Assembly: GCA_003222395.1 (NCBI GenBank)
Contig: QHWB01000031.1
Span: 126,501 to 190,500 of the forward strand
Length of the DNA stretch: 64,000 nucleotides
Origin: Acidobacteriota bacterium
Lineage (GTDB): Bacteria > Acidobacteriota > Vicinamibacteria > Vicinamibacterales > CAVVIG01
Reading direction: 5' to 3'
A program made the translations under genes and the position numbers. Within the stretch, counting starts at the first letter, position 1, and each line of letters begins with the position of its first letter. The notes beneath the pieces were generated by a model, which was not told the origin of the DNA, did not search any database, and was given only the letters and a program-made list of their open reading frames with translations. This document shows, in pieces, positions 36,722 through 43,742 of the stretch.

Positions 36722-37171
36722 ATGTTGCTGACCGTGAGGCAGGCCGCCGAGCGGCTCGGCGTCGGCTACTCGACGCTGAAACAGTGGATCTATCAGGGCC
36801 GCGTCCGCACGAGGACGACGACGGGCGGCCACCACCGGATCGCGGATACCGAGGTCGATCGGCTGCTCGCGCCGTCGACCGCGGCCGTGCGCACGGCCGC
36901 CCGCGAACGGACCGGCGCGATCGTCTCGATCAGCGGACGCAATCAGCTGCGCGGCTACGTCGACGAGGTGCGCGTGGAAGGCCTGCTCGCGCAGGTGCGG
37001 CTGCGGATCGGCGACCAGACGCTCACCGCCGTCATCACGCGCGATGCCGTCGAGGAGCTGAAGCTGCGCCGCGGCGACGAGGCGCTCGCGATCGTGAAGT
37101 CGACCGAAGTGATGGTGGCGCGCGAGGCCGAGCCGCCGCGTCGCCCCCCCAACCGTCGCGCCGCTCGTTGA
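36722..37171 (+). CDS. MerR/excisionase-type HTH fused to a Mop (molybdate-binding) domain
   Basis: This 149-residue protein has a MerR-like winged helix at ~1-50 (LTVRQAAERLGVGYSTLKQWIYQGRVRT...GGHHRI). A Mop/TOBE domain (~65-132: RNQLRGYVDEVRVEGLLAQVRLRIGDQTLTAVITRDAVEELKL) follows, and then a basic tail. The Mop domain binds molybdate. With modABC divergent, the protein is probably a molybdate-responsive regulator doing the job of ModE with a different DNA-binding domain. Confidence 0.88.
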   Translation: MLLTVRQAAERLGVGYSTLKQWIYQGRVRTRTTTGGHHRIADTEVDRLLAPSTAAVRTAARERTGAIVSISGRNQLRGYVDEVRVEGLLAQVRLRIGDQTLTAVITRDAVEELKLRRGDEALAIVKSTEVMVAREAEPPRRPPNRRAAR

Positions 37172-37197
37172 CACCTCAGTTGGCGATCGACTACCCT
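37168..37197 (+). promoter_or_regulatory. Promoter of the histidine operon
   Basis: -35 TTGACA (37168-37173) and -10 TACCCT (37192-37197) are separated by 18 bp. The -35 overlaps the stop of the upstream regulator gene. The expected transcription start falls just before the ATG of the his leader peptide at 37207. Confidence 0.75.
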
Positions 37198-37206
37198 TTC
37201 GGCTCC

Positions 37207-37269
37207 ATGTTCCGCGTTCGCCATCGCGCGCGCCATCATCACCGCCATCTGGCGGCGGAGCGCGCGTGA
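37207..37269 (+). CDS. hisL: Histidine-rich leader peptide of the his operon
   Basis: This is a 20-codon ORF, ATG 37207 to TGA 37269, with histidine at positions 6, 10, 11, 12 and 14; the codons include CAT CAT CAC in a row. Five His in 20 residues directly behind a promoter, and ahead of a terminator and hisI, is the arrangement of ribosome-mediated attenuation. Stalling at the His cluster when charged tRNA-His is scarce would favour read-through. No Shine-Dalgarno precedes it, so it is probably translated from a leaderless 5' end. Confidence 0.75.
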   Translation: MFRVRHRARHHHRHLAAERA

Positions 37270-37324
37270 TCTAGGTCGACCCGGGACCAGGCACCGACGA
37301 CAACGGACCCAGGACCACACGGCG

Positions 37325-37354
37325 CCCCGCCCCACGGCGGGGTTTTTTGTTTTT
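37325..37354 (+). terminator. Attenuator-type intrinsic terminator upstream of hisI
   Basis: CCCCGCC-CCAC-GGCGGGG (37325-37342) is followed by TTTTTTGTTTTT. It starts 55 nt after the leader-peptide stop. GGCGG inside the leader ORF (near 37250) could compete for the CCGCC arm. It could also serve as terminator of the upstream regulator gene, but its place after a His-rich leader favours attenuation. Confidence 0.8.
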
Positions 37355-37361
37355 AGCGGGT

Positions 37362-37390
37362 CCCCACCGCGCGGCCTTTGCGCGGTGGGG
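37362..37390 (+). promoter_or_regulatory. Second hairpin covering the hisI ribosome-binding region
   Basis: A perfect 11-bp stem CCCCACCGCGC / GCGCGGTGGGG has a 7-nt loop and is followed by TGCTTTT and the hisI ATG at 37398. The 3' arm contains the only G-rich Shine-Dalgarno-like sequence (GGTGGGG), so the hairpin may hide it, or act as a second weak terminator. Confidence 0.6.
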
Positions 37391-37397
37391 TGCTTTT

Positions 37398-37709
37398 ATG
37401 GACTATTCCAAGCTCGATGGGCTCATCCCGGCCGTCATCCAGGACGCCGAGTCGTCCGAGGTGTTGATGGTCGGCTTCATGAACGACCAGGCGCTCGCCC
37501 AAACGCGGCGCACCGGCTACGCCACGTTCTTCAGCCGCTCGCGCAACAAGCTGTGGATGAAGGGCGAGACGTCCGGCAACAAGCTCGAAGTCGTCGACAT
37601 CCTCGTCGACTGCGACGACGACACCGTGCTGGTCAAAGTGAAGCGGCTAGGTGATGGAAACGTGTGCCACACCGGCGAGCGATCGTGTTTCTATCGGAAG
37701 CTGACATGA
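37398..37709 (+). CDS. hisI: Phosphoribosyl-AMP cyclohydrolase
   Basis: This 103-residue protein catalyses step 3 of histidine synthesis. The start was chosen at MDYSKLDGL rather than an upstream in-frame codon inside the terminator region. Family motifs are [44 protein letters not shown] and the zinc/Mg sites [11 protein letters not shown] and [11 protein letters not shown]. There is no HisE domain; the pyrophosphohydrolase must be encoded elsewhere. It overlaps hisG (ATGA). Confidence 0.96.
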
Positions 37710-38593
37710 GGCTCAAGCTCGGCATCCCGAAGGGCTCGTTACAGGACGCGACGATTCAGCTGTTCGCGCGCGCGGGGTTCAACATCTACGTCAGCTCGCG
37801 GTCGTACTTTCCCGCGATCGACGATTCCGACATCGAATGCATGCTGATCCGCGCGCAGGAGATGGCGCGCTACGTTTCGGACGGCGTTCTCGACGCGGGC
37901 CTCACCGGTCAGGATTGGATCGCCGAGCACGAGGCGGGCGACGGCAAGACCGGCGTCATCACCAGCATCGCCGATCTGATCTACGCCAAGCAGAGTTTTG
38001 GCAGGGTGCGCTGGGTGCTCGCGGCGCCCGAGGAGTCGACGATTCGATCGGCACGCGATCTCGAAGGCAAGACCGTCGCCACCGAGCTGGTGCGCGCGAC
38101 GCGCGCGTACTTCGCGCGCCAGCGCGTGAACGTCAACGTCGAGTTCTCCTGGGGCGCGACCGAAGTCAAGCCGCCGATGCTCGCGGACGCGATCGTCGAG
38201 GTCACGGAGACTGGATCGTCGCTTCGCGCGAACCGGCTGCGGATCATCGATACCGTGATGGAGTCGAACACGCAGCTGATCGCGAATCATGCGGCGCTCG
38301 CCGACGCGTGGAAGCGGACGAAGCTCGACAACCTCGCGCTGCTGCTGAAGGCCGCGATCGAGGCGCAGGGGCGCGTCGGCCTGATGCTGAACGTGCGCCG
38401 CGCCGATCTCGACGGCGTGCTGTCGTTGCTGCCGGCGCTGCAGCGCCCGACGATCTCGGCGTTGAGCGATGCCGACTGGGTCGCGGTGAACACGATCATC
38501 GAGGAACGCACGGTTCGAGATCTGATTCCGAAGTTGAAGGCCGCGAACGCCCAGGGGATCGTCGAGTACCCGTTGAACAAGATTGTGTTGTAG
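37706..38593 (+). CDS. hisG: ATP phosphoribosyltransferase, long form
   Basis: This 295-residue enzyme catalyses the first, committed step, joining ATP and PRPP. It has the catalytic type-II periplasmic fold ([45 protein letters not shown]). A C-terminal ACT-like regulatory domain (~215-295, ending in [12 protein letters not shown]) makes it the long, self-sufficient, histidine-inhibited form, so no HisZ is needed. The start overlaps the hisI stop. Confidence 0.96.
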
Positions 38594-38658
38594 ATCGACT
38601 TCGTTGGCGACGTTCTGTTCTAGATCCGCGCGAGCGGTCTACGCCGCGAGCGCGGCAG

Positions 38659-38677
38659 CGCGTGGGGGGCCCACGCG
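38659..38677. repeat. Hairpin / GC-rich repeat with GGGCCC core in the hisG-hisD gap (copy 2)
   Basis: CGCGTGGG-GGG-CCCACGCG is a perfect 8-bp stem in the 114-bp gap between hisG and hisD. Read on the minus strand it resembles the GGGCCCC + CGCTCG-rich element found at 19034, 51568 and 62134. The rest of the gap holds an outer CGTGT...ACACG repeat and no gene. Confidence 0.55.
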
Positions 38678-38707
38678 TGTAAAAAATGTCGTGACACGCG
38701 AGTAAGC

Positions 38708-39943
38708 ATGCGAATCATCCAAGCCGGTGACACGCGCGCGCTGCGGCGCCTGATGCCGGCGAACGCGGCAATCGATCGCGCTTTCCGCCGCCGCGTGCAG
38801 ACGATTGTCGATCGCGTGCGGAGCGGCGGCGACCTCGCGCTCGCCGCGTTCGCGCGCCGCTTCGACGGCGTCGACGGCCCGCTCGAAGTGCCGACTGACG
38901 ACGTGCGGGAGCAGGCGTCGAAGGTCGAGGCGGCGGTCCGGCTGGCGATCCGCCAGGCGGCGAAGCACATCGCGCGCGTCGCGTTCCGTCAGATTCCGCG
39001 TCACTTCGATCTCCGCGTCGCCCCGGGCGTGTCGGTCGAGCAGCGCATCGAGCCGCTGGCGCGCGTCGGCTGCTACGTGCCGGGCGGACGGTTCCCGCTG
39101 CCCTCGTCGTTGTTGATGACCGCGGTGCCGGCGCGCGTCGCCGGCGTCCGCGAGATCATTGCCGTCTGCCCGCGTCCCGAGCCGGCCGTCATGGCCGCGG
39201 CCGTCGAGGCGGGCGTGACGCGGTTGTTCCGCGTCGGCGGCGCGCACGCGGTGGCCGCGCTCGCCTACGGCACGAAGACGATTCCGCGCGTCGACAAGAT
39301 CGTCGGCCCCGGCAATCGCTACGTCGCCACGGCAAAGGCGATCGTCGCGGGCGATTGCGCCATCGATTTCTACGCCGGTCCGACCGAGATCGTCATCGTC
39401 GCCGGCGCGGGCCGCGCCGCGTGGATCGCCGCCGATCTCGTCGCGCAGGCCGAGCACGATCCCGATGCGCGCGCCGTGCTGATCACGTGGAGCGAGCCGC
39501 TCGCCGCGCGCGTGTCGGCCGCCGTCGACCGGGCCGCGGCCGGGCGCGCGGTCGCGGAGCAGTCGCTGGCGGCGAACGGCGCCATCATCGTCGCGCGAAC
39601 GGAGCACGAGGCGATGGATCTGGCGAACCGGTTCGCGCCGGAGCATCTCGTCGTCGACCGGGAGTCGCTCGCGCGCCGGCCGCTCGTCGCCGGCGCCGTG
39701 TTCGTCGGCGATTTCAGCGCGCAGGCGGCAGGCGACTACGCAACCGGATCGAATCACGTGTTGCCGACCGGCGGCGCCGCACGCTTTCGCGGCGGCCTGA
39801 ACGCCGCCGATTTCGTGCGCGTGATGGCGGTGCAGCGCGTCACGCGTCCCGGCCTGGCGCGGCTCGCCGACACGATCCTGCCGCTCGCGCGCGCCGAAGG
39901 GCTGCAGGCGCACGCGGAATCGGTGGAGTTGAGGCTCAAATAG
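38708..39943 (+). CDS. hisD: Histidinol dehydrogenase
   Basis: This 411-residue zinc enzyme oxidises histidinol to histidine in two NAD-dependent steps. Motifs include [61 protein letters not shown] and the C-terminal [12 protein letters not shown]...[10 protein letters not shown]. Its TAG overlaps the GTG of hisC by one base. Confidence 0.97.
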
Positions 39944-40986
39944 TGGGTCACTACCAGAAACCGCCGGAGCTGTACGACGGCTTGCGGCTGCATCAGAACG
40001 AGAACACCGGCGGCTGCTCGCCGCGCGTCATCGAGGCGCTCGCGAAGCTGCGCCCCGATCAAATCGGCTTCTACCCGCCGTACGCCGCGGCGACCGACGT
40101 CATCGCGCGCTACCTGGGCGTGCCGGCCGACCGCGTCGCGATCACCAACGGCCTCGACGAAGGCATCATGGCGTTGTCGGTGGCGCAGCTGCGGCCGGAC
40201 GGCGGCCGACCGGTGCCCGAAGCGATCGTGCCGGAGCCGGCGTTCGAGATCTTTCGCTTCGACACGGCGGTCGCGGGCGGCGCGCTCGTGCAGGTGATGC
40301 CGCACGCCGACTTCTCGTTTCCGCTCGACGAGGTCCTCGGAGCGATCACGCCGAACACGCGCGTCGTTTTCCTCACGAATCCGAACAACCCGACGGGCGT
40401 GTCGATGCCGCTCGACGCGATTCGCGCGATTGCGCGCCATCTGCCGCCAAAGGCCATCGTGTTCGTCGACGAAGCGTACGCCGAGTTCGCGGGCGTCACC
40501 TTCCTGCCGGAGCTGGCCTCGTTTCCGAACGTGATCGTCGGTCGGACGTTTTCGAAAGCGTTCGGGCTCGCAGGGCTGCGCATCGGCTGCCTGGTTGGCG
40601 CCGCCGACGTCCTCGATCCGATTCGCGAGGCGGTTCCGGTGTACAGCGTGAACGTCGCCGCCGTCGCCGCCGTGCAGGCGGCGCTCGGCGATCTCGATCA
40701 TCTCAATCACTATCTGCGCCAGGTGGCCGAGTCGAAAGCGATTCTCTACGCCGCGTGCGATCGTCTCGGTCTGAAATATTGGAGGAGCAGCTCGAACTTC
40801 GTGCTCCTGTGCGCCGGCGATCGCACCACGGCACTCGTCAACGGCGCGTTCGAGCGCGGCATCTACATCCGCGATCGCTCGACGGAACCGGGCTGCGCCG
40901 GCTGCATCCGAGTCGGCGCCGGCATCGTCGAGCACACGCGACGGGCGGTGGCGGTGATGGAAGAGGTGCTATGCGCCGTGCGGTGA
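39943..40986 (+). CDS. hisC: Histidinol-phosphate aminotransferase
   Basis: The 347-residue PLP enzyme of fold type I starts at GTG 39943 (TAGTG overlap with hisD). It shows [33 protein letters not shown] and the PLP-lysine segment [16 protein letters not shown]. It transaminates imidazole-acetol phosphate with glutamate. Its 3' end overlaps hisB by 16 nt. Confidence 0.95.
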
Positions 40987-41558
40987 TCGATCGGCGGACC
41001 ACCGAGACGCAGATTGTGCTCGCCATCCGCCTCGACGGCAAAGGGCAGTACGCGGTCCGCACCGGCATCCGCTTTCTCGATCACATGCTGGAACTCGTCG
41101 CCCGGCACGGCGCGTTCGATCTGCGGATCGACGCGGTCGGCGATCTCGACGTCGATCAGCATCACACCGTGGAAGATCTCGGCATCGCGCTCGGCGAGGC
41201 GGTGTCGCAGGCGTTGGGCACGCGCCGCGGGATCAACCGCGCGGGCTACTTCGTGATGCCGATGGACGAGACGCTGGCGGTCGCGGCCATCGATCTCGGC
41301 GGCCGGCCGCACGCGGTCGTGGATCTGGGAGTGAAGGTCGTCCGCGTCGGCGATCTCCAGACCGAGCTGGTGCACGATTTCTTCGACGGCTTCGCCATCG
41401 GTGCGCGAGCGAACGTCCACGTGAAGGTCCTGTACGGCCGATCGAGCCACCACAGGATCGAAGCGGTGTTCAAAGCATTCGCGCGCGCGCTCCGGGTCGC
41501 CTGCTCGAGAGACAAGCGGTTGGCAAAGATGCTTCCGAGCACAAAAGGACTGCTGTGA
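40971..41558 (+). CDS. hisB: Imidazoleglycerol-phosphate dehydratase
   Basis: This is a 195-residue monofunctional HisB without the phosphatase domain. Metal-binding repeats [73 protein letters not shown] are complete. A separate histidinol-phosphate phosphatase is therefore required and is not in this cluster. Confidence 0.96.
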
Positions 41559-42220
41559 TGCACCTTCCAATCGCGCTCATCGACTACAAGGCCGGCAACC
41601 TGACATCGGTCAAGAAAGCGCTCGCGACGGTCGGCGCGGAGGTGTTCGTGCCCGGACGCCCAGCTGATCTTGCGTCCGCGCAGGGTGTGATCGTGCCGGG
41701 CGTCGGCCATTTCGGCGCGACGCGCGCGATCGACGGCGAGTGGACCGAGGCAATCCTCGAGCGCATCGGCGAAGGACGTCCTCTCCTCGGCATCTGCCTC
41801 GGGATGCAGTGGCTGTTCGAGGGGAGCGACGAAGCGCCGGATCTGCCGGGTCTCGGCGTCCTCTCAGGACGATGCTATCGGCTTGGTGGAGTCCGCCTGA
41901 AACCGGACACCGTTGATGAAGCCGCCTCGGACGCAACCGTCGCGGGCGCGCCAGTCAAGGTTCCGCACGTCGGCTGGAACGACATCACGTTCGATCGATC
42001 CGCGTCGATCGTCGACGGCGTGTCGTCCGGCGCGCAGGTGTACTTCACGCACAGCTACGTTGCGCCGATCACGGGCGACACGATCGCATTCACCGAACAC
42101 GGCGGTCGCTTCGCGTCGGTCGTCCAGCGCGCCCACATCGCCGGCGTGCAATTCCATCCGGAAAAGTCCGGCGACGTCGGGTTGCGTATTCTGCGGAATT
42201 TCTTGGAGCTTGCCGGGTGA
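41558..42220 (+). CDS. hisH: Imidazole glycerol phosphate synthase glutaminase subunit
   Basis: The 220-residue class I glutamine amidotransferase starts at ATG 41558 in TGATG with the hisB stop. The nucleophile Cys is in LLGICLGMQWLF, and the His-Glu pair in GVQFHPEKSGDVG. Residues ~108-132 (VRLKPDTVDEAASDA and flanks) are an extra segment between the Cys loop and KVPHVGWND, encoded by a REP-like element; ordinary HisH has only a short turn there. It supplies ammonia to HisF. Confidence 0.94.
   Translation: MHLPIALIDYKAGNLTSVKKALATVGAEVFVPGRPADLASAQGVIVPGVGHFGATRAIDGEWTEAILERIGEGRPLLGICLGMQWLFEGSDEAPDLPGLGVLSGRCYRLGGVRLKPDTVDEAASDATVAGAPVKVPHVGWNDITFDRSASIVDGVSSGAQVYFTHSYVAPITGDTIAFTEHGGRFASVVQRAHIAGVQFHPEKSGDVGLRILRNFLELAG
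41891..41908. repeat. REP-like palindrome inserted in frame in hisH (copy 2)
   Basis: GTCCGCCTGAAACCGGAC matches the core of the palindrome at 32773 with a few changes and encodes VRLKPD in the hisH frame. Confidence 0.65.
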
Positions 42221-42224
42221 CGAC

Positions 42225-42288
42225 ACAGAGTGACCCGAGAACACAGTGTTCTCCTGCCAACTCCGTGTCGTTACCACGCTGACCTCAG
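42225..42288. repeat. Nested palindromic filler between hisH and hisF
   Basis: Outer arms ACGACACAGAGT and ACTCCGTGTCGT (one mismatch) enclose the perfect palindrome GAGAACAC-A-GTGTTCTC. A related sequence starting ACGACACAGAGT lies at 54813. It can form a long hairpin inside the his mRNA. Confidence 0.7.
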
Positions 42289-43044
42289 ATGCTCTCAAAA
42301 CGCATCATCGCGTGCCTCGACGTTCGCGACGGTCACGTGGTCAAAGGGGTGAACTTCGAAGGCCTTCGATCCGCGGGCGACCCCGCGGAGCTGGCGCGCC
42401 GCTACAACGTCGAAGGGATCGACGAGCTGGTGATCCTCGACATCACGGCGACGATCGAAGCGCGGCGCGCGCTCGCCGACACGATCCGTGCGGTCGCGCG
42501 CGAGCTGTTCATCCCGCTCGCGGTCGGCGGCGGAATTCGATCCGAGGACGATGCGGCTGCCGCGGTGGAAGCGGGCGCCGACAAAGTGAGCCTGAACACG
42601 GCGGCGCTCGGAGATCCGGCGCTCATCACGACGCTCGCCGATCGCTATGGCAGTCAGGCCGTGGTCGTCGCGATCGACGCAAAGCGCGATGGCGATCGCT
42701 CGGCCGTGTACTCGCGCAGCGGCCAGACGGCGGCGAATCGCGATGCGGTCGAGTGGGCGCGCGAAGCCGAGTCGCGGGGCGCCGGCGAAATCCTGCTCAC
42801 GTCGATCGATCGCGACGGCACCAAACGCGGATTCGACTGCGATCTGACGGCGGCAGTCTCTGGCGCAGTGTCGATTCCGGTCATCGCGTCGGGCGGCGCC
42901 GGCACGCTCGATCATTTCGTCGAGGTGTTCACGGCGGGCCGCGCCGACGCCGCGCTCGCCGCGTCGATCTTTCATTACGCGGAGACGAGCGTTCGCGCGC
43001 TGAAACAGCATCTGCGCGCGCACGGCATCCCGGTGCGTCTGTGA
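42289..43044 (+). CDS. hisF: Imidazole glycerol phosphate synthase cyclase subunit
   Basis: This 251-residue TIM barrel starts [26 protein letters not shown]. The phosphate-binding motifs are [11 protein letters not shown] and [12 protein letters not shown], and the catalytic Asp pair is in ACLDV and [10 protein letters not shown]. With HisH it makes imidazole-glycerol phosphate and AICAR. The stop overlaps a GTG that could also start hisA. Confidence 0.97.
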
Positions 43045-43052
43045 ATCCACGA

Positions 43053-43742
43053 ATGCTCATCCCATCCATCGATCTCAAAGACGGCGCCGTCGTCCAACTC
43101 GTGCAGGGCGAGCGCCTCGCGATCCGCGACGATGACGTCTTCCGGTGGGTGCGGCGGTTCGAGCGGTTCCCGAAAGTGCAGGTGATCGACCTCGACGGCG
43201 CGATGGCGTCGGGCGACAATCTCGCGCTCGTCCGGCAGATCGCGGGTGTCCTCTCGTGCCGCGTCGGCGGCGGCATTCGCACGGTCGCGCGCGCGCAGGA
43301 CGTGCTCGCCGCCGGCGCGCATCAGGTCATCGCCGGGTCCGCACTGTTCAAGGACGGCCGTCCGGACGTCGACTTCGCCGCGTCGCTGGCCGACGCGGTC
43401 GGTCGTGAGCGCGTCATTGCCGCCGTCGACAGCCGCGGCGGATACGTAGTGATTCACGGATGGAAAACGCCGCTGCCGCTGACGCCGCAGGAGGCCGTGC
43501 GCGCGCTCGAGCCGTATTGCGATGAGTTTCTCTACACGCACGTCGATACCGAAGGGTTGATGGGTGGCACCAACATGGAGGCAATCCTCGCTGTCGCGCG
43601 CGTGACGCCGCGGCGCGTCACGGCCGCCGGCGGCATCACCACGCAGGCAGAAATCGACGAATTGGACTCACTCGGCATCGATGCCGTCGTCGGAATGGCT
43701 CTTTATACCGGGACTTTGAAACTGGATTCGGAATCCCGCTAA
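43053..43742 (+). CDS. hisA: ProFAR isomerase
   Basis: The 229-residue TIM barrel catalyses the Amadori rearrangement of ProFAR. The start was chosen at ATG 43053 to match the family beginning MLIPSIDLKDGAVVQL; GTG 43041 overlapping the hisF stop is the alternative. RVGGGIRTVARAQDVLAAGA, VHGWK-type and TAAGGITTQAEIDEL phosphate sites are present. It is the last gene of the operon. Confidence 0.95.
   Translation: MLIPSIDLKDGAVVQLVQGERLAIRDDDVFRWVRRFERFPKVQVIDLDGAMASGDNLALVRQIAGVLSCRVGGGIRTVARAQDVLAAGAHQVIAGSALFKDGRPDVDFAASLADAVGRERVIAAVDSRGGYVVIHGWKTPLPLTPQEAVRALEPYCDEFLYTHVDTEGLMGGTNMEAILAVARVTPRRVTAAGGITTQAEIDELDSLGIDAVVGMALYTGTLKLDSESR

Follow-up and report, generated by a model that had tools for sequence, protein, structure and literature searches.

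The 64-kb window, by which we mean the whole stretch of acidobacterial DNA that was analysed, carries a histidine operon whose upstream region raises a simple question: is transcription of these genes controlled by a leader peptide rich in histidine, and if so, how would a ribosome load onto a leader that seems to begin where the transcript begins? The original prediction had proposed a his operon leader with a His-rich peptide and an attenuator, and this interpretation gains support from conserved His codons and from a terminator and antiterminator that covary among relatives. With a probability of roughly 0.88, we regard the element as a ribosome-mediated transcription attenuator that responds to histidine and on which ribosomes load in leaderless fashion. 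The genome carrying the window comprises 7.74 Mb, and the hisI sequences on public contigs closest to that of the window belong to acidobacterial metagenome-assembled genomes, some of them labelled Vicinamibacterales.

Judged by Pfam domains and gene order, the operon has the arrangement hisIGDCBHFA on the plus strand. Its first gene, hisI (phosphoribosyl-AMP cyclohydrolase, PF01502), extends from 37398 to 37709 with its ATG at 37398, and is followed by hisG, hisD, hisC, hisB, hisH, hisF and hisA at 37706 to 43742; hisC (aminotransferase) and hisH (glutamine amidotransferase) are named from general Pfam domains and position. Upstream lies an HTH-TOBE gene (36722-37171; PF12728 and PF03459 in Pfam), and the 226 bases that separate it from hisI, together with its own last bases, contain a promoter, a leader ORF, a terminator and a second hairpin, as read from the sequence. 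The sigma-70-type promoter (37168-37197, plus strand) consists of a -35 box TTGACA at 37168-37173, an 18-nt spacer and a -10 box TACCCT at 37192-37197, a geometry that is repeated in relatives; the -35 box overlaps the stop codon of the HTH-TOBE gene. Nine nucleotides after the -10 box begins the ATG (37207) of a 20-codon leader ORF, hisL (37207-37269, plus strand, TGA at 37267-37269), with a predicted 5′ untranslated region of 0-5 nt. Its putative peptide, MFRVRHRARHHHRHLAAERA, has histidine at positions 6, 10, 11, 12 and 14. The intrinsic terminator occupies 37325-37354 on the plus strand, where the stem-loop CCCCGCC-CCAC-GGCGGGG (37325-37342) is followed by T6GT5 (37343-37354), with a predicted energy of -14.5 kcal/mol. 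Promoter, His codons and terminator thus read as originally claimed. Three further plus-strand segments complete the proposed switch: a putative 1:2 hairpin or anti-antiterminator, CCGCC-ATCT-GGCGG (37242-37255, -8.3 kcal/mol), which lies over and after the last His codons; region 2, the antiterminator 5′ strand GGCGGAGCGC (37254-37263), located within the hisL ORF before its stop codon; and region 3, the antiterminator 3′ strand GCGCCCCGCC (37322-37331), which overlaps the 5′ arm of the terminator.

The conservation of the His codons was assessed in DNA upstream of hisI, obtained from 24 of 27 same-family genomes (those with a match) and from 80 public contigs. After removal of 11 duplicates, 5 non-acidobacterial loci and 3 loci with less than 300 nt upstream (L008, L063, L104), 86 acidobacterial rows were left; among them are L022 and L041, both on contigs that start within hisI and both scored as misses, and L078, whose record title reads Acidimicrobiia and which was counted as acidobacterial, the same leader being present in L122, from the order to which the window belongs. 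A short ORF with four or more His in 9 codons was present no more than 350 nt ahead of hisI in 78 of the 86 loci, versus 7 of 1611 random segments of the same loci and 10 of 1720 dinucleotide shuffles. The His-rich leader upstream of hisI is not due to chance, because such ORFs mark 78 of 86 upstream regions and only 0.4-0.6% of the controls. With the threshold relaxed to at least 3 His in 9 codons, 81 of the 86 loci are positive; the five that still fail are L022 and L041, together with L039, L045 and L051, which have no leader. In these last three loci GAGGAA stands ahead of hisI, an apparent loss of the attenuator. No His-rich short ORF was found within 350 nt of hisI in any of the 5 non-acidobacterial loci. 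Scanned in 350-nt segments with a step of 100, the plus strand of the 64-kb window passes the same test at the his leader site only, while on the minus strand one 17-codon ORF (11470-11417) also passes.

The leader peptides diverge strongly between relatives (for example MFTRHHHVHHHPVLRGGRSCA, MSFVHHAHRSHHHRSQNGTAGVCA and MQIRTHHRHHHHHHVTNVSADPFGLR), and the His codons are kept even though the peptides differ, as the original prediction had proposed to verify. In-frame CAN codons of the leader ORFs comprise 278 CAT, 244 CAC, 29 CAG and 5 CAA, so that histidine accounts for 522 of 556 (94%); the ORFs were selected for His, and the informative part of this count is the mixture of CAT and CAC. 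In the other two frames, the share of CAY among CAN codons is 15/35 and 47/63. The in-frame CAN codons being mostly His, with CAT and CAC mixed, it is the amino acid that is conserved and not the letters. This synonymous variation bears directly on an alternative in which the terminator is driven by an RNA that senses tRNA, such as a T-box, or a metabolite, the His codons being incidental. There is precedent in Firmicutes and Actinobacteria, where his genes under T-box control are described in PMC9413887. At gathering cut-offs, however, no Rfam family was detected in the window or in 10 relatives; neither RF00514 (His leader) nor RF00230 (T-box) matched at cut-off in these sequences, and nothing relevant, including these two families, appeared in the leader at E ≤10. 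Taken with in-frame His codons that are conserved through synonymous change, these results make a sensing RNA of this kind extremely improbable. The element is accordingly not a member of the Rfam His leader family RF00514.

The peptide-dependent reading requires competing RNA structures, and these are predicted in the relatives as well. Between leader ORF and hisI, a terminator was detected in 76 of 81 leaders by a finder that required a T-rich tail; in the row for the window the finder picked the second hairpin, and the true terminator was read from the sequence. The 3′ part of the leader ORF contains GGCGG-A-G followed by a short G+C-rich stretch, and these segments pair with the terminator 5′ arm together with the bases preceding it. 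In the alignment of 75 leaders (A1, from which L048 was excluded for its poor hairpin), the terminator has a covariation score of 0.277 versus 0.151 in shuffles, with 94.0% of cells paired. The 13 pairs of the antiterminator score 0.186, versus 0.142 in shuffles (reached by 0 of 500) and 0.012-0.085 in slid versions. Kinship alone can push sequences above such shuffles without structure, and a structure derived from the same sequences favours itself over slid versions. Cells changed on both sides number 59 versus 40.1 in shuffles (0 of 500 reach this value), and 70.3% of cells are paired in the alignment versus 66.2%. Two of the five antiterminator measures do not stand out from shuffles in these 75 leaders: pairs changed on both sides (10 versus 8.8, reached by 97 of 500 shuffles) and further pair types (29 versus 27.0, reached by 107 of 500). 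Paired changes are visible by eye in A1, where GTTGC faces GCAAC in L017, L020, L021, L023 and L024, and CTGC faces GCAG in L060, L061 and L065. When leaders are tested singly, the antiterminator pairing lies at or below the 0.05 shuffle level in 57 of 76. The original prediction had suggested a search for an antiterminator built with the leader GGCGG, and one is both predicted and covarying (GGCGG..GCGC with the terminator 5′ arm; 75 sequences). In the case of the window RNA, the minimum-energy fold from leader nucleotide 47 to the end of the terminator, roughly the RNA left free by a ribosome halted at the His codons, is the antiterminator (-35.0 kcal/mol), whereas the predicted fold of the complete leader contains the terminator. 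The 1:2 hairpin segment is weakly more stable than shuffles across the 76 leaders, with a mean z of -0.52 and values below zero in 59%.

A further element was proposed at the hisI start itself, an 11-bp hairpin that would cover the ribosome site. The hairpin does exist at 37362-37390, with its 3′ arm GGTGGGG just upstream of the hisI start, and its assignment as a part of the switch that hides the ribosome binding site was rejected. The palindrome CCCCACCGCGC-N7-GCGCGGTGGGG (window 37362-37390; L107-L109) occurs at 16 places in the genome with up to 3 mismatches, each reported on both strands, while a backwards control occurs at 0. Several copies show stem letters that change in pairs (e.g., CCCCAACGCGC with GCGCGTTGGGG), and one copy sits within a long ORF. 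A search with a similar pattern found none in the relatives' hisI loci examined. With 16 copies in the genome and none in those loci, the second hairpin is a copy of a dispersed element, which we presume to be REP-like, and it probably does not belong to the attenuator.

The same region gives rise to a different proposal, namely that control is dual or mainly translational, the terminator hairpin also hiding the hisI ribosome site, since its 3′ arm GGCGGGG is the sole SD-like stretch there in near relatives. In nine of them (L003, L005, L006, L007, L009, L011, L016, L025, L059), 4-7 nt separate the first T run from the hisI start, and this interval contains no AGGA, GGAG or GAGG; the terminator arm is therefore the nearest G-rich stretch, and dual control is possible in these nine. 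Other relatives have longer spacers, some of which contain SD-like motifs, and in the window the palindrome copy stands between the terminator arm and hisI. The T-rich tail that follows the hairpin in the 76 leaders, where it was a requirement of the finder, is moreover what termination needs. For the element as a whole, we consider dual or mainly translational control unlikely, and transcription attenuation remains the preferred reading.

How the leader ORF would be translated was approached through the spacing between promoter and start codon in 81 distinct leaders, 80 of which had enough upstream DNA, with start codons picked regardless of the promoter. In 73 of 80 leaders, the end of a TANNNT box falls 6-11 nt ahead of the start codon; for three of the rows (L053, L054, L068) the start was assigned manually once the promoter spacing had been viewed, and omitting these leaves at least 70 of 77. 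The commonest gaps are 9 (30 leaders) and 10 (20 leaders). Shuffled sequences give a mean of 2.3 and a maximum of 6, and moving the test window 40-90 nt upstream gives 0-3. Among the 80 leaders there are 49 instances of TTGAC with its end 32-36 nt from the start codon, and SD-like four-mers ahead of the start are rarer than expected (3 of 80 versus 7.1). The combination that characterizes a leaderless mRNA, a -10 box near the start codon and no SD sequence, is consequently found here, and the hisL ORF looks leaderless or nearly so. A pyrimidine-purine step at the A of the ATG is seen in 67% of gap-9 leaders (n = 30), 47% of gap-8 leaders (n = 15) and 40% of gap-10 leaders (n = 20), which agrees with transcription starting at the AUG without proving it. 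Starts mapped in S. lividans, as given in PMC8079986, lie 4-9 nt from the -10 box (mean 6.3), so that on this scale a 5′ untranslated region of 0-5 nt would be expected here; since a gap of 9 falls at the long end of that range, a region of a few nucleotides would be as likely as none. Leaderless genes account for 9.7-19.4% in three acidobacterial genomes according to an earlier survey (PMC3160421).

This spacing also weighs on the possibility that the attenuator is real while hisL is served by a promoter farther upstream, with a longer 5′ untranslated region and ordinary initiation. A gap whose mode is 9 permits up to 5 nt ahead of the ATG, and one genus of family f25 (L159/G056, L160/G094, L180/G069) has a His leader (e.g., MVIATVSRHHHHHHPILGPG..) with GAGG before the ATG, no -10 box at 6-11 nt and a distant hisG; this f25 leader looks SD-led. 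Against such an arrangement as the general rule are the box at 6-11 nt in 73 of 80 leaders, when shuffles yield at most 6, the TTGAC at the matching -35 distance in many leaders, and SD-like motifs below expectation. We therefore regard a leader that is not leaderless as quite improbable for this element. The suspicion of a leaderless start voiced in the original prediction is strengthened by this fixed spacing.

On the window leader, a leaderless attenuator would operate as follows. RNA polymerase would start at, or within about 5 nt of, the hisL AUG, and the ribosome would as a result load on a bare 5′ end without a Shine-Dalgarno site. When His-tRNA is ample, the ribosome would quickly reach the UGA and cover region 2; region 3 would then remain available for pairing with region 4, the terminator would form and transcription would end before hisI. 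When His-tRNA is scarce, the ribosome would stall at codons 10-14 and mask the 5′ strand of the 1:2 hairpin; with this hairpin blocked, region 2 would pair with region 3, no terminator would form and the his operon would be transcribed. A ribosome has a footprint of about 15 nt beyond the P site. Consequently, a ribosome waiting at codons 10-12 would have the 5′ strand of the 1:2 hairpin (37242-37246) under it, and a ribosome at the stop codon would have region 2 under it, a geometry that in this model suits classical attenuation. Altogether, the element has most of the tested sequence features of the peptide-attenuator class, including an ORF with control codons before the cognate operon, a terminator before the first gene, and an antiterminator that shares the terminator 5′ arm.

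To describe its distribution, a leader model was compared with 297 genomes of the phylum, 108 of which match at E ≤0.01, the E-values being rough. Matches were obtained in 7/7 genomes of the family (the own genome included), 17/23 in the rest of the order, 0/2 in the rest of the class and 84/265 in the rest of the phylum. The count of 108/297 overstates the spread of the element, because genus g62 contributes matches that reach an E-value of 1.4e-7 and lack an adjacent his gene. These g62 matches (e.g., L148, L152, L153, L154, L158), some of which occur on both strands, are probably G+C-rich palindromes or bidirectional terminators. Inspection of 70 matches, with the flanking DNA checked for hisG, hisD, hisC, hisB, hisH and hisF, revealed a His-rich leader in 49, namely all of the best 30 (12 of these leaders being identical to leaders already in the set) and 19 of the 40 others. 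Among the 49, 48 have hisG or hisD in the flanking DNA and one lies near a contig end. Four matches (L161, L164, L166, L176) with a His-rich short ORF and no adjoining his gene were left out of this count, and L182 has hisD and, by the threshold used, no leader. Beyond the order, 28 matches fall in family f17, where all 16 that were inspected carry leaders; further families with leaders are f66, f12, f13, f68 and f25. Cultured relatives that possess the element include Acidipila rosea DSM 103428 (L095) and Acidipila sp. EB88 (L099). In family f12 the leader precedes hisD. In L151 and L155 (genomes G028 and G058), a His-rich leader ORF, a promoter-like box and a terminator-like sequence stand ahead of hisD and not hisI, and the element is thus not bound to one first gene.

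Within the own genome, the model has one clear match, ahead of the his operon, and 20 further matches with E of at least 0.10; seven of these weak matches (L140-L146) show neither a leader nor a his gene. The best matches in the family to trpE (22 loci), hisS (22 loci) and ilvB (19 loci) were scanned for a similar leader, and none had upstream an ORF that combines a cognate amino-acid run with a -10 box 6-11 nt before it. Cognate runs without such a box occur there at 11 trpE, 5 hisS and 2 ilvB loci.

Both components of the element have counterparts elsewhere. The enteric His operon leader (RF00514) likewise combines a His-rich leader peptide, an intrinsic terminator and a competing antiterminator before the his operon; the acidobacterial element differs from it in its predicted leaderless start, in having region 2 inside the leader ORF, in hisI as first gene and in the lack of an Rfam match. 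Candidate His-leader attenuators of Firmicutes, another phylum, have 3-5 consecutive His codons with a predicted terminator and antiterminator, and the parts of PMC9413887 that deal with them do not mention a leaderless start. Leaderless leader ORFs, for their part, are described for S. meliloti trpL (PMC7298713), for S. lividans trpL (trpL1), leuL and ilvL among others (PMC8079986), and for C. diphtheriae ilvB (PMC5784534). These share with hisL a leader ORF placed at the transcription start before an amino-acid gene, and they concern other amino acids and phyla, with starts taken from RNA data there and from promoter spacing here. In mycobacteria, leaderless poly-Cys ORFs (Canestrari et al. 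2020, cited in PMC9031893 and PMC13236596) similarly comprise a short ORF in which a run of one amino acid senses that amino acid; the amino acid is cysteine, and according to PMC9031893 these ORFs act on the translation of downstream genes. The promoter geometry supports a leaderless start for hisL, and leaderless attenuator ORFs are already known from S. meliloti, S. lividans and mycobacteria, as the cited accounts indicate.

The S. meliloti system suggests one more role, in which the terminated leader RNA or the His-rich peptide would also act in trans, as rnTrpL and peTrpL do. In that organism the trp attenuator RNA begins with the leader AUG, and PMC7298713 describes activity in trans for the RNA as well as for the peptide. 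The peptides considered here are, outside the His run, poorly conserved by eye, which argues against such a function, and we judge it very unlikely. Regarding Acidobacteria, Naville and Gautheret (2010) predicted attenuators in phyla such as this one and, in the account given in PMC2965389, almost all were without associated functions. No his attenuator in Acidobacteria was found in the literature searched, and subscription papers or an earlier comparative attenuation survey could contain one. His attenuators and leaderless leader ORFs are each known; the element combines them, and we found no report of both together in Acidobacteriota.

A broader proposal, which we put forward tentatively and hold to be rather doubtful, is that several Acidobacteriota families share a minimal, SD-free his attenuator. 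Leaderless initiation would here couple the first ribosome to RNA polymerase from the outset of the transcript, and in one group of near relatives a single arm, serving as terminator strand and as hisI ribosome site, would set transcription and translation together. Since leaderless geometry, His run and terminator occur together in them, these loci form a natural set for asking how a ribosome that loads on a leaderless transcript stays in step with RNA polymerase, and the loci without a leader or with an apparently SD-led version offer built-in comparisons. As for the organism itself, its his operon is most likely switched on only under histidine shortage, in an arrangement that recurs in many of its relatives.
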